Positions 39,862 to 44,881 of a stretch of DNA of 46,503 bases are shown here, one piece after another. Origin of the DNA: a virus. The notes under the pieces are model-generated. The model made no database searches, was not told where the DNA came from, and saw only the letters and a program-made list of their open reading frames with translations. A program made the translations under genes and the position numbers. Location of the stretch: the IMG/VR virus record IMGVR_UViG_3300033571_005373, positions 1 to 46,503 of that record; one strand, 5' to 3'. The stretch's first letter is position 1; the number at the start of each line of letters is the position of its first letter.

Positions 39862-40425
39862 ATGTCAGACGCACCACTAATCGGCACAAGAGAAATGAAA
39901 CACGAAGGGCCGTTGATTCGGCTGCTAATGTGTTTTGTGTGTAACACCCTGGAGGAGTTGCCAGATTACGATGGCCCAGTAGAACAAGATTATCTACTAG
40001 AAATCTCTATTGAGAAGCATGTGTTTCCATCTGGAGAGCCCCACAAAGGTAAGCTGTTTAAGCTGCCAGTAAAGTCATGGGCAACCGCTGACCAGAGAAA
40101 AGCTATTCTAGGCCAGCTGCAAACTGGTGGTAGCCGAGGGCTAGACGAACTAGACCCAGATAAGTCGTTTTACGACACCAAAATGACATTCATGGAAGAC
40201 GCCATGAAATGCTACGCTGCCCATAACCGCCCAAAGATTGAGTGCCCAGATTACGGAAGCCCTCAAAAGAGGTTGTTACCTAATTCTGCAAAAGAACGAG
40301 CTGAGCTTAATCTTCCTAAGCCAGAGCACGCAGATGGGCCCAAGATTTATCTGTGCAATTTCTGCCCAATGCACTCAACTGTAACTACTAATAACCGACT
40401 AAAACAAGGACTATACAAAGCATGA
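39862..40425 (+). CDS. Cysteine-containing hypothetical protein
   Basis: 187 residues, ATG after CAAGGAGCAATAG. CxxC in MCFVCNTLEELPDYDG, further Cys at YAAHNRPKIECPDYGSP and a CNFCPMH near the C-terminus (KIYLCNFCPMHSTVTTNNRL); together they could make a zinc site. The rest is beta-rich with an acidic helix. Unknown function; ATGA coupling to the next gene. Confidence 0.6.
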   Translation: MSDAPLIGTREMKHEGPLIRLLMCFVCNTLEELPDYDGPVEQDYLLEISIEKHVFPSGEPHKGKLFKLPVKSWATADQRKAILGQLQTGGSRGLDELDPDKSFYDTKMTFMEDAMKCYAAHNRPKIECPDYGSPQKRLLPNSAKERAELNLPKPEHADGPKIYLCNFCPMHSTVTTNNRLKQGLYKA

Positions 40426-40724: not shown

Positions 40725-41627
40725 ATGACTGAGTTTGGTTCGTTTCCGACATCCTATTTCAGCACACCTGCGCCAGAACTAGACCCCACCCTGTTTGAGG
40801 GTAGACAAATCCGTTCATGGGTCCGCCAAGGAATCCGTCACATTCTTACTGATTTCCTGTACAAGAGATACCGCCACCCAGAGCTGTGGGCACACCCATG
40901 GTTGGCTGGTTCCGCAGTCTCGTACCAATGGCAAGCTGCACGGCAGCCAGGGGACCTCGATTGTTTAATTGGCGTAGATTACATTCAATTTAGAAAAGCA
41001 AATCCAGAATTTAAAGGACTGACAGATAAAGAAATCTCAGAGCAGTTAAACGAAGAGTTCAGAGAAGAGCTGCACCCTCAGACCAGCGACTGGAACGGAT
41101 TTGAGTTGACGTTTTACGTAAACCCTGGGGCAACAGACATTCGTACAATAAAGCCGTATGCGGCGTATGACCTAAAGTATGACGAGTGGACAGTCCACCC
41201 AGACCCGCAGCAGATAGCTGCAGTCAATGAAGATTGGGAACGGGTTATCAGTTCTGATAAGGATTCTACAAAGCAAATATACACTAGGTTTACCCAAGCT
41301 GTTCAAGACCTAAAGCAGTCAGTAAGTGAACCGAACCGCAGAAATGCTGAAGCTAGGTTGGCCGCTGCACATCAGCAGGCAGAAGCATTGTTCCACGAGA
41401 TACACTCCAATAGGCGTGAGGCGTTCTCTACTACAGGGGCAGGATATAACGATTTCAACAACTACCGTTGGCAAGCAGGAAAGCGTGAAGGCGTAATCCA
41501 GTCCCTACGTGAAATACGTGAGTACATGAGCAACATCCAGCAGGAACAGAACAAATCAAAGTACGGGGTAGAATTCCCAGACTCCAGCACCTTAGTTCGA
41601 AGGGCAGCCACGTACAGAGCTAAATGA
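40725..41627 (+). CDS. Nucleotidyltransferase-fold protein
   Basis: 300 residues, ATG 40725. Residues 60-85 (LAGSAVSYQW...GDLDCLIGVDY) match the nucleotidyltransferase pattern hG[GS]x(9-13)D-h-[DE]-h: G62-S63 and D77-L-D79. A third acid is expected near FELTFYVNPG. The rest is alpha-helical, with a charged coiled region toward the C-terminus (ARLAAAHQQAEALFHEIHSN). It may add nucleotides to RNA or protein, or modify a metabolite; no specific member is recognised. It lies next to HAD-like and transglycosylase-like genes. Confidence 0.6.
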   Translation: MTEFGSFPTSYFSTPAPELDPTLFEGRQIRSWVRQGIRHILTDFLYKRYRHPELWAHPWLAGSAVSYQWQAARQPGDLDCLIGVDYIQFRKANPEFKGLTDKEISEQLNEEFREELHPQTSDWNGFELTFYVNPGATDIRTIKPYAAYDLKYDEWTVHPDPQQIAAVNEDWERVISSDKDSTKQIYTRFTQAVQDLKQSVSEPNRRNAEARLAAAHQQAEALFHEIHSNRREAFSTTGAGYNDFNNYRWQAGKREGVIQSLREIREYMSNIQQEQNKSKYGVEFPDSSTLVRRAATYRAK

Positions 41628-42211: not shown

Positions 42212-42347
42212 GCTGCGCTGCCTCCTGGGCCTGCACGCAAAAGAAGTTACGGGCCAATGTCCCGTAACTAGATTTAAAGTATGGGAATGCCAAACCTGCG
42301 GTAAAACCAATAAAAGAAAGCACTCCGCTGGTAGCAGGTTTAACTAA
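42204..42347 (+). CDS. Small cysteine-containing protein
   Basis: 47 residues from TTG 42204, overlapping the HAD-like stop by 8 bases. The protein begins SKLRCLLGLHAKEVTGQCPV and has CxxC in WECQTCGKTNKR. The 'CLlGlH...C..CG' pattern recurs in small phage and bacterial proteins and suggests zinc binding. TAATG with the next gene. Confidence 0.6.
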   Translation: MSKLRCLLGLHAKEVTGQCPVTRFKVWECQTCGKTNKRKHSAGSRFN

Positions 42348-43852
42348 TGATTATTTTTGGTGGGGTAGAGATACCCTCGAATAGAACCCTTTTAGAGCGC
42401 AGCGGCGTAAGTAACGTGATGCTCAATTACTGGGGGTTACGTAAAAGAGGATTGCCTAAGACAAAGGCATATTTAATTGGAGAGCATTTCCTACCAGATA
42501 TGAAAGTATGGGTAGATTCAGGGGCAACTCAGGCGGACAAAGCAAACCTGTCGTCAAGAGAGTTGGAAGAATACGCCGCAGATTACGAAGAGTTTGTAGC
42601 CCTGAATTATGAGCGAATTGAGGGGTGGGTAGAGTTTGATTCCCAAGTCATGGGATTGCCGTGGATTCAGCAGCAGCGTGCAGCGTTTGAGAACGACCCC
42701 AAGATGTGGGTGGTTTGGCACGAGGCCTACAATACACTCCTACTACAGCAGTGGGCAGGGTCCTACGATAACATCGCGATACCAGGGGACGCGGTAGAAA
42801 ACATGACCTCGTTGGCGGGTATTGTACGTTCGTTGAAAACAAAGCACAATGTACAGGTTCACGCCTTAGCCACTGCAAAGCCAGATAACCTACGGCAGGT
42901 GCCGTTTGATACAGCCAGTACACTATCGTGGTTGTCCCCCATGCGTAGGGGGGAAACAATCGTTTGGGATAATACCAAGCTGGTTCGATACCCGAAGAAA
43001 ATGAAAGCTCAAGCGAGGCCAAGATATAAGGCCATAGTTGAAAAGGCTGGGTTAGATTTCCAGAAGTTTATAGACGACGACACCCTAGAAGCGACTAAAG
43101 TGGCCGTATGGTCCTATTTACAGTTAGAGAAAACAATGGATAAAGACAAGCCAGACCTGAGAGTACTTAAAGGTGGCAAGAAAGACGAACTGTTAGCTGA
43201 TAACAGTGATGACACCCTATACACAGGTTTGATGGATTTGATGGGGGGTGCTTCTAATAACAGTGGTCAAGAAGTGCGGAAACTTGAGGGGTCAGAAGTG
43301 GTACAAAGAGACCCTTCTGAAATGACATCACTCCCAGTATTTGGGTACCAGATGAAGACAGTCGTCGAGACTGATGATGAGGGTAGGGACATACTAAAAG
43401 AGGTTCCTGTTGTACACAATCAATACTCTAGTTTACGTCAGTGTAACACTTGCTTTGTAGCAACTAACTGCCCTGCTTTTAAGGAAAACAATACGTGTGC
43501 TTTTAATCTACCAGTAGAGGTAAAGACTAAGGACCAGCTTAAGGGATTGCTTACCGCAATCATTGAAATGCAGGGCCAAAGAGTAGCGTTTATGCGGTTT
43601 GCGGAAGAAACTAACGGTGGCTATGCGGACCCAAATGTGAGCCAAGAAATAGATAGATTGTTTAAGTTAGTGTCCTCTATGAAAGAACTAGAGTCTAATA
43701 AAGAGTTTGTAAGGATTACGGCAGAACGCCAGACCTCTGGTGGAGTGTTGTCTGCTATTTTTGGAGATAGAGCGCAGGCCCTAAAAGAAATGCCTCAGCC
43801 GTTAAACGAACAACAGACAACTATGATTATCAAGGACTCTTTAGAGGATTAG
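42347..43852 (+). CDS. TGT/DpdA-like transglycosylase with C-terminal Cys cluster
   Basis: 501 residues, TAATG start. Residues about 50-210 match the tRNA-guanine transglycosylase barrel: MKVWVDSGATQAD (D57, the DSG of TGT), EGWVEFDSQVMG (D98, like TGT 'mafDe'), VHALATAKPDNLRQ (H172), and VPFDTASTLSWLSPMRRG (D188, equivalent of the nucleophile region). This version resembles phage DpdA, which inserts 7-deazaguanine bases in DNA. Residues 366-384 hold four Cys (C366, C369, C375, C384) in a pattern unlike the TGT zinc site. Helical C-terminal domain of unknown role. No queuosine pathway genes are visible nearby. Confidence 0.65.
   Translation: MIIFGGVEIPSNRTLLERSGVSNVMLNYWGLRKRGLPKTKAYLIGEHFLPDMKVWVDSGATQADKANLSSRELEEYAADYEEFVALNYERIEGWVEFDSQVMGLPWIQQQRAAFENDPKMWVVWHEAYNTLLLQQWAGSYDNIAIPGDAVENMTSLAGIVRSLKTKHNVQVHALATAKPDNLRQVPFDTASTLSWLSPMRRGETIVWDNTKLVRYPKKMKAQARPRYKAIVEKAGLDFQKFIDDDTLEATKVAVWSYLQLEKTMDKDKPDLRVLKGGKKDELLADNSDDTLYTGLMDLMGGASNNSGQEVRKLEGSEVVQRDPSEMTSLPVFGYQMKTVVETDDEGRDILKEVPVVHNQYSSLRQCNTCFVATNCPAFKENNTCAFNLPVEVKTKDQLKGLLTAIIEMQGQRVAFMRFAEETNGGYADPNVSQEIDRLFKLVSSMKELESNKEFVRITAERQTSGGVLSAIFGDRAQALKEMPQPLNEQQTTMIIKDSLED
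43192..43211 (+). repeat. 20-base direct repeat, copy 1
   Basis: GTTAGCTGATAACAGTGATG within the transglycosylase gene; copy 2 at 43852-43871 differs by one base. The two are 660 bases apart. Could be a remnant of a local duplication or a binding site. Confidence 0.6.
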
Positions 43853-43940: not shown

Positions 43941-44222
43941 CTACTTCTTCTTCTTCTTCTTAGGTTGCAGGGCTAACTTGATAATCATTGTCTTGTTGTT
44001 GGATGTACGGCGAACTCTGTCTCTAAGTATCCTGAGTTCCTCGGGGTTCTTACCTCCCCAGATACCATACTCTTCCTTATGGAACACAGCCCATGTTAGA
44101 CACTGCTCTACTATTGGGCATGAGTTACATAGTGTCTTAGCCCTTATCTCGTTCTCTCGGTTCAATTCGTAAAAGGTGTCAATGGGTTCCCCCACACACT
44201 TTGCATCAGTGGTATCAAACAT
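43941..44222 (-). CDS. WhiB-like Fe-S transcription regulator (canonical)
   Basis: 93 residues from the ATG at 44222, which has GAGGAG just upstream; the in-frame ATG at 44234 lacks a good ribosome site. Four Cys: C9, C32, C35 and C41 in the canonical C...CxxC-x5-C arrangement, and GIWGG at 53-57. The C-terminus ends in six Lys (KPKKKKKK), encoded by repeated CTT on the plus strand. WhiB proteins bind a [4Fe-4S] cluster and a sigma factor; a phage copy would modulate host transcription. Last gene of the leftward operon. Confidence 0.9.
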   Translation of the reverse strand: MFDTTDAKCVGEPIDTFYELNRENEIRAKTLCNSCPIVEQCLTWAVFHKEEYGIWGGKNPEELRILRDRVRRTSNNKTMIIKLALQPKKKKKK

Positions 44223-44721
44223 CTTTCTCCTCATCTGTTGGCCATACGTAATCGTATGCTGTTGGTTCTATCCCTGTATCTTCTGGCCAGTTGAATTGAC
44301 TATACCATGCATAGTCCTTGGCCAGTAAAGCTTGGCGGTGGCTGGAGGCTACCTCTTCGTACTTAGCTTTGTCTACCATCCAGTCAGGCTTACCTTCTGC
44401 GTACACTAGGGCATTCTCGTAAGCTACTTTCATAGTCTGTGTAGCCTTCTCTGCGATGGTGGTATTGTATCCCCGAGCTACCCACTCATCTGTCATAGCT
44501 ATGACGTAGGAGTATAGCTCGTTCTCGTGGTCACGCCACATCTTTACTGCTGGATGATTACGCCAACCACGTGCTCTACGGAACTCTCCCTGAGGGTCAA
44601 GCTCTAATAGATTCATTAGTATCTGCCAGCCTTCTAGGGCTTGCTTGTTGAGCCTCTTGTTGTCAAGAGTCTTAGCTATCTCTTTGTAATCGTTTGTTGC
44701 TATTGGTAGAAACGTCTGCAT
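44215..44721 (-). CDS. Pyrimidine-dimer DNA glycosylase-like protein
   Basis: 168 residues from the ATG at 44721, preceded by AGAGAGGAATAAC; an upstream in-frame extension (28 residues) overlaps another gene and has no support. The N-terminal MQTFLPIATNDYKEIAKTLD and NKRLNKQALEGWQIL, then ARGWRNHPAVKMWRDHENEL, are the hallmark of the pyrimidine-dimer excision family (DNA glycosylase/AP lyase, PF03013-type). The C-terminal part contains HRQALLAKDYAWYSQFNWPE ('H...Ll.k...~Y~~fgw'). It would repair UV damage in phage DNA; useful for a sunlit habitat. Confidence 0.85.
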   Translation of the reverse strand: MQTFLPIATNDYKEIAKTLDNKRLNKQALEGWQILMNLLELDPQGEFRRARGWRNHPAVKMWRDHENELYSYVIAMTDEWVARGYNTTIAEKATQTMKVAYENALVYAEGKPDWMVDKAKYEEVASSHRQALLAKDYAWYSQFNWPEDTGIEPTAYDYVWPTDEEKDV

Positions 44722-44722
44722 G

Positions 44723-44881
44723 TTATTCCTCTCTGCTTTGTTTCCAGTCCTCGTACATCTCGTCACACATACATGGGAAGTACCCACAGATACAAATGGG
44801 CTCATGCTCTGTACAATCTATCGAGCATTCATCACACTGGTCACAAGTGATGGTCATTTCCATACGGTCGTTCCAGCCCAT
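44723..44881 (-). CDS. Cysteine-rich small protein
   Basis: 52 residues from the minus-strand ATG at 44881 (TAATG with its upstream neighbour). It contains CDQCDECSIDC and then CICGYFPCMC: eight Cys in two clusters, pointing to zinc or Fe-S binding. Ends one base before the glycosylase start. No family recognised. Confidence 0.6.
   Translation of the reverse strand: MGWNDRMEMTITCDQCDECSIDCTEHEPICICGYFPCMCDEMYEDWKQSREE

Follow-up and report, generated by a model that had tools for sequence, protein, structure and literature searches.

What does a phage do with a protein built like a DNA-guanine transglycosylase, and does such a protein still exchange bases? The question is raised by a 46.5-kb virus record from IMG/VR, a genome fragment analysed here over its whole length (the window, below), which carries a myovirus-type gene set comprising tail sheath, gp19-like tube and baseplate proteins, DNA polymerase A, primase, DnaB helicase and UvsX/RecA. 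The gene of interest, whose extent the initial annotation had given correctly, is a real open reading frame running from ATG to stop, and its product consists of a DpdA/TGT barrel, a linker and a helical domain with a cluster of four cysteines (Cys4; Table 1). The family profile phrog_887, labelled queuine tRNA-ribosyltransferase, matches the protein over its full length (E=2e-59).

Table 1. Features of the DpdA-like gene and its upstream cassette (positions are those of the window).
Feature	Position	Strand	Basis
187-aa protein with terminal CNFC motif	39862..40425	+	locus comparison
Putative nucleotidyltransferase, GS...DLD motif conserved	40725..41627	+	motif
HAD-like protein, 161 aa	41726..42211	+	motif; 'phosphatase' labels of relatives
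DpdA-like protein, 501 aa	42347..43852	+	ORF; phrog_887; full-length relatives
TGT/DpdA-type (beta/alpha)8 barrel, residues 1-263	42347..43135	+	AF2, PDB match, hhalign
D57 in DSG, equivalent of acid/base Asp (TGT Asp102)	42515..42517	+	alignment
E96, C-terminal end of a barrel strand	42632..42634	+	AF2 secondary structure, alignment
H172, equivalent of DpdA His196	42860..42862	+	alignment; PMC6884629 for His196
S191, nucleophile Asp column (Asp215 in 9g DpdA)	42917..42919	+	alignment
Basic motif RYPKKMKAQAR, residues 214-224	42986..43018	+	alignment
C-terminal domain, about residues 361-495, Cys4 cluster and helices	43427..43831	+	profile and neighbourhood comparison
Cys4 cluster C366-x2-C369-x5-C375-x8-C384, probable metal site	43442..43498	+	alignment

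The DpdA-like family is widespread in phages: more than a hundred viral stretches were recovered besides the window, and one scan covering 600 stretches yielded at least 399 confirmed relatives. An identical gene (100% identity) lies on a 75.6-kb contig, and the named relatives, about 32% identical, belong to Streptomyces phages BRock, GiJojo, LuckySocke, Alone3 and pSt2308; the BRock and GiJojo homologues carry the labels queuine tRNA-ribosyltransferase or DpdA-like. Proteins of this BRock/GiJojo group, also phrog_887, resemble the window protein over their full length, follow the same upstream cassette and have no catalytic nucleophile either (see below), but an extra gene separates their HAD-like and DpdA-like genes. 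Just downstream of the window gene, on the minus strand, lie a gene for a WhiB-like regulator at 43941-44234 (Pfam E=3e-16) and one at 44215-44805 for a pyrimidine-dimer DNA glycosylase (E=3e-19). The WhiB gene, taken with the Streptomyces-phage relatives, suggests an actinobacterial host for the window virus, and the glycosylase suggests repair of UV damage. DpdA-like genes were also seen in bacterial contigs of Saccharothrix sp. ST-888 (L211) and Terracoccus sp. 273MFTsu3.1 (L210), with HAD-like and 187-aa-type genes upstream; both loci are probably prophages or co-sequenced phages.

By fold and ancestry, the protein belongs to the TGT/DpdA superfamily. An AF2 model predicts a TIM barrel over residues 1-263 with pLDDT of about 90 for the greater part of it, while the linker and C-terminal domain are modelled at low confidence. 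The sole structural match below 0.001 in the PDB is the archaeosine TGT 1j2b (E=3.8e-5), and a search of a viral structure library with the same model returns queuine tRNA-ribosyltransferases. An HMM was built from 13 canonical DpdAs (those of 9g, BS162P1, Cracklewink, Dp-1, a Rosebush relative, Nicole72, Mufasa8, phi38:2, MMDA13, Rinkes, RHEph04, BUCT006 and L197); among the window ORFs it scores the DpdA-like protein at 46 bits and places no other above threshold. Aligned by hhalign, the DpdA-like family and the canonical DpdAs match over 209 columns (probability 99.1%, E=1e-18). The initial annotation had proposed a base-exchanging transglycosylase fold, and on this point the confident TIM barrel, its TGT match and the two profile comparisons bear it out. 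The TGT family model PF01702 matches nothing in the window or its relatives, nor does it match 9g DpdA. Pfam, NCBIfam and PDB sequence searches with the window protein returned nothing useful, and the absence from Pfam and NCBIfam was not counted as evidence because 9g DpdA fails both too. A Pfam match to Coq4 (E=0.09) and a phmmer match to a SnoaL-like protein (E=0.4) were dismissed as chance.

Ancestry does not settle activity, which turns on a few residues. The covalent intermediate of TGT arises when Asp280 attacks the glycosidic carbon, and the role of acid/base belongs to Asp102 (PMC3660597, PMC6165067). The nucleophile motif aligns without gaps between the DpdAs of 9g (HGFGITSRPLMERYPWYSCDSSSW) and Bacteroides phage BS162P1 (HGFAWTEFDLLKHYPFFSVDSVTW) and the window protein (HALATAKPDNLRQVPFDTASTLSW), which puts Ser191 in the column of 9g Asp215. 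The Asp is present in 13/13 canonical DpdAs, a set that includes 9g, Dp-1 and a close Rosebush relative, and 7-deazaguanine DNA has been reported for phages 9g, Dp-1 and Rosebush (PMC6884629). Among 121 distinct relatives of the window protein, which share kinship and so are not 121 independent observations, the same column holds Ser in 118, Ala in 2, Thr in 1 and Asp in none. The Asp has also been lost in divergent members of the family, those of BRock, Saccharothrix and Terracoccus. From these alignments we infer that 9g Asp215 is the DpdA counterpart of TGT Asp280; when the PDB was searched with the DpdA profile, no TGT chain came up through which the two residues could be aligned.

The initial annotation had drawn support for catalysis from three acidic residues (D57 in DSG, D98 and D188) and from H172. 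All four exist in the protein, and their conservation across the 121 relatives divides them. D98 (113/121) and H172 (118/121) are largely kept; D57 is not, the column being Asp in only 54 relatives and otherwise Glu (57), His (6), Ser (3) or a gap (1), with His or Ser found in some clades. D188 can be set aside as a catalytic acid, as it lies three residues before the nucleophile column and is variable (A 32, V 22, S 21, T 16, D 14, E 13, G 2, N 1). Two further features are invariant in all 121 relatives. One is E96, at a position that is usually non-acidic in canonical DpdAs and that predicted secondary structure and alignment would put on the barrel's catalytic side; the other comprises R214, K217, K220, Q222 and R224 of the basic motif.

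The gene is not decaying. Median dN/dS (23-25 pairs) is 0.063 in the barrel, 0.127 in the linker and 0.032 in the C-domain; purifying selection on the barrel is thus strong, and decay into a pseudogene can be rejected. The gene also keeps constant company: the HAD-like gene lies upstream, directly or at a short distance, in 161/161 loci, the nucleotidyltransferase-like gene is present in 156/161, and the gene for the 187-aa CNFC protein is upstream in 160/161. A HAD fold for the 161-aa protein is suggested by its motif and the 'phosphatase' annotations of relatives, some of which carry the label phosphatase and some hydrolase. The expected motif I nucleophile is missing from the protein (VELDGVL).

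The retention of H172, D98 and the invariant E96 in the barrel makes an altered chemistry possible. Such an enzyme would remove or exchange bases without a covalent Asp intermediate, using for example E96 and D98 or S191, to produce an undescribed modification of DNA or RNA, possibly with the help of the nucleotidyltransferase-like and HAD-like proteins encoded next to it. The modelled position of E96, the strength of purifying selection and the near-constant presence of the two neighbouring genes would all fit. That said, TGT uses the Asp and every canonical DpdA examined keeps it, the HAD-like partner has itself no nucleophile, certain clades have His or Ser in place of D57, and genes for a precursor were not found (see below). 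We consider this explanation rather unlikely.

A different lead comes from the C-terminal domain. Its four cysteines are invariant in 44/44 aligned relatives, and the cluster is shared with proteins of Bacteroidota phages. The CxCx2Cx(n)H zinc site of TGT is absent; the Cys4 cluster has another spacing and sits in a separate domain, and the initial annotation was right to describe it as differing from the usual site. The cluster and the helix pattern that follows it (Q..R...E..GG..D...E.DRL) recur as a standalone protein in Bacteroides phage BS162P1, where the gene lies directly downstream of a DpdA that has both Asp residues, in DSG and at the nucleophile. That DpdA adjoins QueC and the gene of a radical-SAM, QueE-like protein; FolE and QueD are encoded at other places in this genome, and the same DpdA/Cys4/QueC/QueE-like neighbourhood is found in MT835482, L197 and L209. 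These phages thus share the barrel and the Cys4/helical domain with the window protein, as neighbouring genes rather than as a fusion. Since the two parts are fused in one lineage and encoded by adjacent genes in another, the arrangement indicates that barrel and Cys4 domain function jointly. Two of the Bacteroidota-phage DpdAs (L195:473-2713 and L209:2819-5014), both next to genes for QueC, the Cys4 protein and a QueE-like protein, contain an intein-like insertion exactly inside the nucleophile motif (DSS^TTW). On a bacterial contig of Streptomyces sp. ISL-96 (L212:7794-8456), possibly a prophage remnant, the Cys4 C-domain occurs with no DpdA barrel.

The Cys4 domain also matches the C-terminal part of 'terminase small subunits' (TerS) of Gordonia and Tsukamurella phages (hhalign E=2e-6, probability 89), the genes for which lie immediately upstream of TerL. 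In Rhodococcus phage ReqiDocB7 the TerS match spans two adjacent genes, gp001 and gp002, ahead of TerL. An AF2 model of a Gordonia-type TerS (mean pLDDT 62.5) has an N-terminal order of strands and helices very similar to that of the DpdA-like protein, and its Foldseek neighbours include a member of the window family (E=1.4e-8) and a Microbacterium phage queuine tRNA-ribosyltransferase (E=3e-4). Direct hhalign comparison of the DpdA-like barrel with the N-terminal half of TerS stays below significance (E=0.02-0.08); as the sequence match is weak, the barrel-TerS link rests on a model of moderate confidence. With that qualification, the Gordonia, Tsukamurella and Rhodococcus TerS proteins look like degenerate DpdA-type barrels combined with the Cys4 domain, either fused or split between two genes. 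Compared with the window protein, those of GMA7, GTE7, Katyusha and TIN4 (phrog_6902/16015) share the Cys4 domain, have a similar length and domain order and are predicted to have the same fold in their N-terminal half, but their genes are directly upstream of TerL and their barrel sequence has diverged beyond recognition. TerS loci with this pairing were recorded at L213:42-1499, L214, L215, L216, L218-L227 and L228:152-1548.

Is the window protein, then, a small terminase that recognises DNA for packaging? As a specific form of the explanation that we favour (below), this would account for the same two-domain architecture standing at the TerS position before TerL in the Gordonia, Tsukamurella and Rhodococcus phages, and for the Foldseek connection between the TerS model and DpdAs; it would also fit the finding that none of six BRock proteins encoded near TerL matches a TerS family. 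In relatives of the window phage, however, TerL lies tens of kb from the DpdA-like gene, so that gene position lends no support to a packaging role there, the TerS label of the Gordonia proteins may itself be positional, and the sequence link between the barrels is non-significant. We regard the small-terminase identity as unlikely on present evidence.

The initial annotation had pictured a working DpdA that shields phage DNA from restriction by inserting a preQ0-type base salvaged from the host. The fold and homology to DpdA would agree with this, as would the database labels of the BRock and GiJojo homologues. The window protein shares with the phage DpdAs of 9g, CAjan, Rosebush and Dp-1 (Hutinet et al. 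2019, PMC6884629) a TGT-type barrel and the His196 equivalent, but it has Ser191 in place of Asp215, belongs to a family in which the DSG Asp is unconserved, and carries a fused Cys4 domain; no pathway genes were found to go with it. Searches of near-complete relatives (90-115 kb) for QueC, QueD/PTPS, FolE and the preQ0 transporter family Vut_1/YhhQ found none, and the same FolE and QueD searches were positive in phages 9g and BS162P1. The absence of queuosine genes remarked on in the initial annotation extends, for the genes searched, to these relatives; the host salvage offered to explain it may occur but would not replace a missing nucleophile. Phages with dpdA and no pathway genes do exist, and Salmonella phage 7-11 has traces of dADG (PMC6884629); phage Orion, which has DpdA only, has unmodified DNA, ascribed to the missing precursor (PMC6884629). 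In the Orion relative Burr, the DpdA gene was not found in the parts of the genome examined. With the nucleophile Asp replaced in all 121 relatives, the acid/base Asp often replaced and no precursor genes found, canonical 7-deazaguanine exchange by the family is unlikely, to judge from its sequences, and we hold a functional DpdA in the window phage to be distinctly improbable. Of the earlier interpretation, the TGT/DpdA ancestry and the atypical Cys4 site survive and the synthesis of 7-deazaguanine DNA is not supported.

Least probable of all, in our estimate a very slim prospect, is an action on RNA, in which the protein would bind or modify tRNA as a relative of TGT or would pair, itself inactive, with the host TGT in a heterodimer of the QTRT2 kind. 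The QTRT2 precedent (PMC6165067) and some 29 tRNA genes in BRock might favour this reading, but it sits badly with homology to the DNA-acting phage DpdA group, with the partnership of the Cys4 C-domain and canonical DpdA in other phages, and with the lack of any tRNA gene found by ARAGORN in the window. A second, catalytic DpdA was looked for in the near-complete relatives and none was found, so that the phage is unlikely to encode both halves of a QTRT1/QTRT2-type pair.

The explanation that we favour, and to which we give about an even chance of being correct, is that the DpdA-like protein is a non-catalytic descendant of DpdA that recognises nucleic acid, most likely DNA. It descends from the phage DNA-guanine transglycosylases and retains the TIM barrel, the DpdA-type His and the Cys4 partner domain. 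The nucleophile Asp has been lost, its place now taken by Ser191, in a family that tolerates loss of the acid/base Asp as well. Binding of phage DNA would fall to the barrel, with its invariant basic segment RYPKKMKxQAR, and a second contact, with DNA or with a partner, to the Cys4 domain. Base exchange would thus be gone and recognition of nucleic acid kept, much as in the non-catalytic TGT subunit QTRT2, which provides a precedent for losing both the nucleophile and the acid/base residue (PMC6165067). Eukaryotic QTRT2 has the TGT fold with both residues replaced; it differs from the window protein in pairing with a catalytic paralogue, none of which was found in these phages, and in keeping the TGT zinc site. 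The analysis shows the fold, the ancestry, the loss of the nucleophile, the domain organisation, the purifying selection and the conserved cassette; we infer both the absence of base exchange and the binding of DNA. As to the step that such binding would serve, DNA packaging is a leading candidate, speculative as this is, because in Gordonia, Tsukamurella and Rhodococcus phages the same pair of domains is encoded ahead of the large terminase. No earlier report of the nucleophile loss or of the TerS link was found in a partial coverage of the literature, and one may exist.

More broadly, and more tentatively, DpdA may have been repurposed in many, mostly actinobacterial, phages as a non-catalytic DNA-recognition module that became a small terminase in one branch and the widespread protein described here in another; this remains a doubtful proposition. 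If it holds, phages would have, in a dead transglycosylase with a Cys4 partner, a novel type of factor for recognising or packaging DNA. There is also a practical consequence, since labels such as queuine tRNA-ribosyltransferase or DpdA-like make the family easy to miscount as phages with modified DNA, and the nucleophile test argues against counting hundreds of its members in this way. The Cys4 domain connects 7-deazaguanine operons, the DpdA-like family and small terminases, and the hypothesis that we offer is of a route by which a base-exchange enzyme may have become a DNA-recognition protein.
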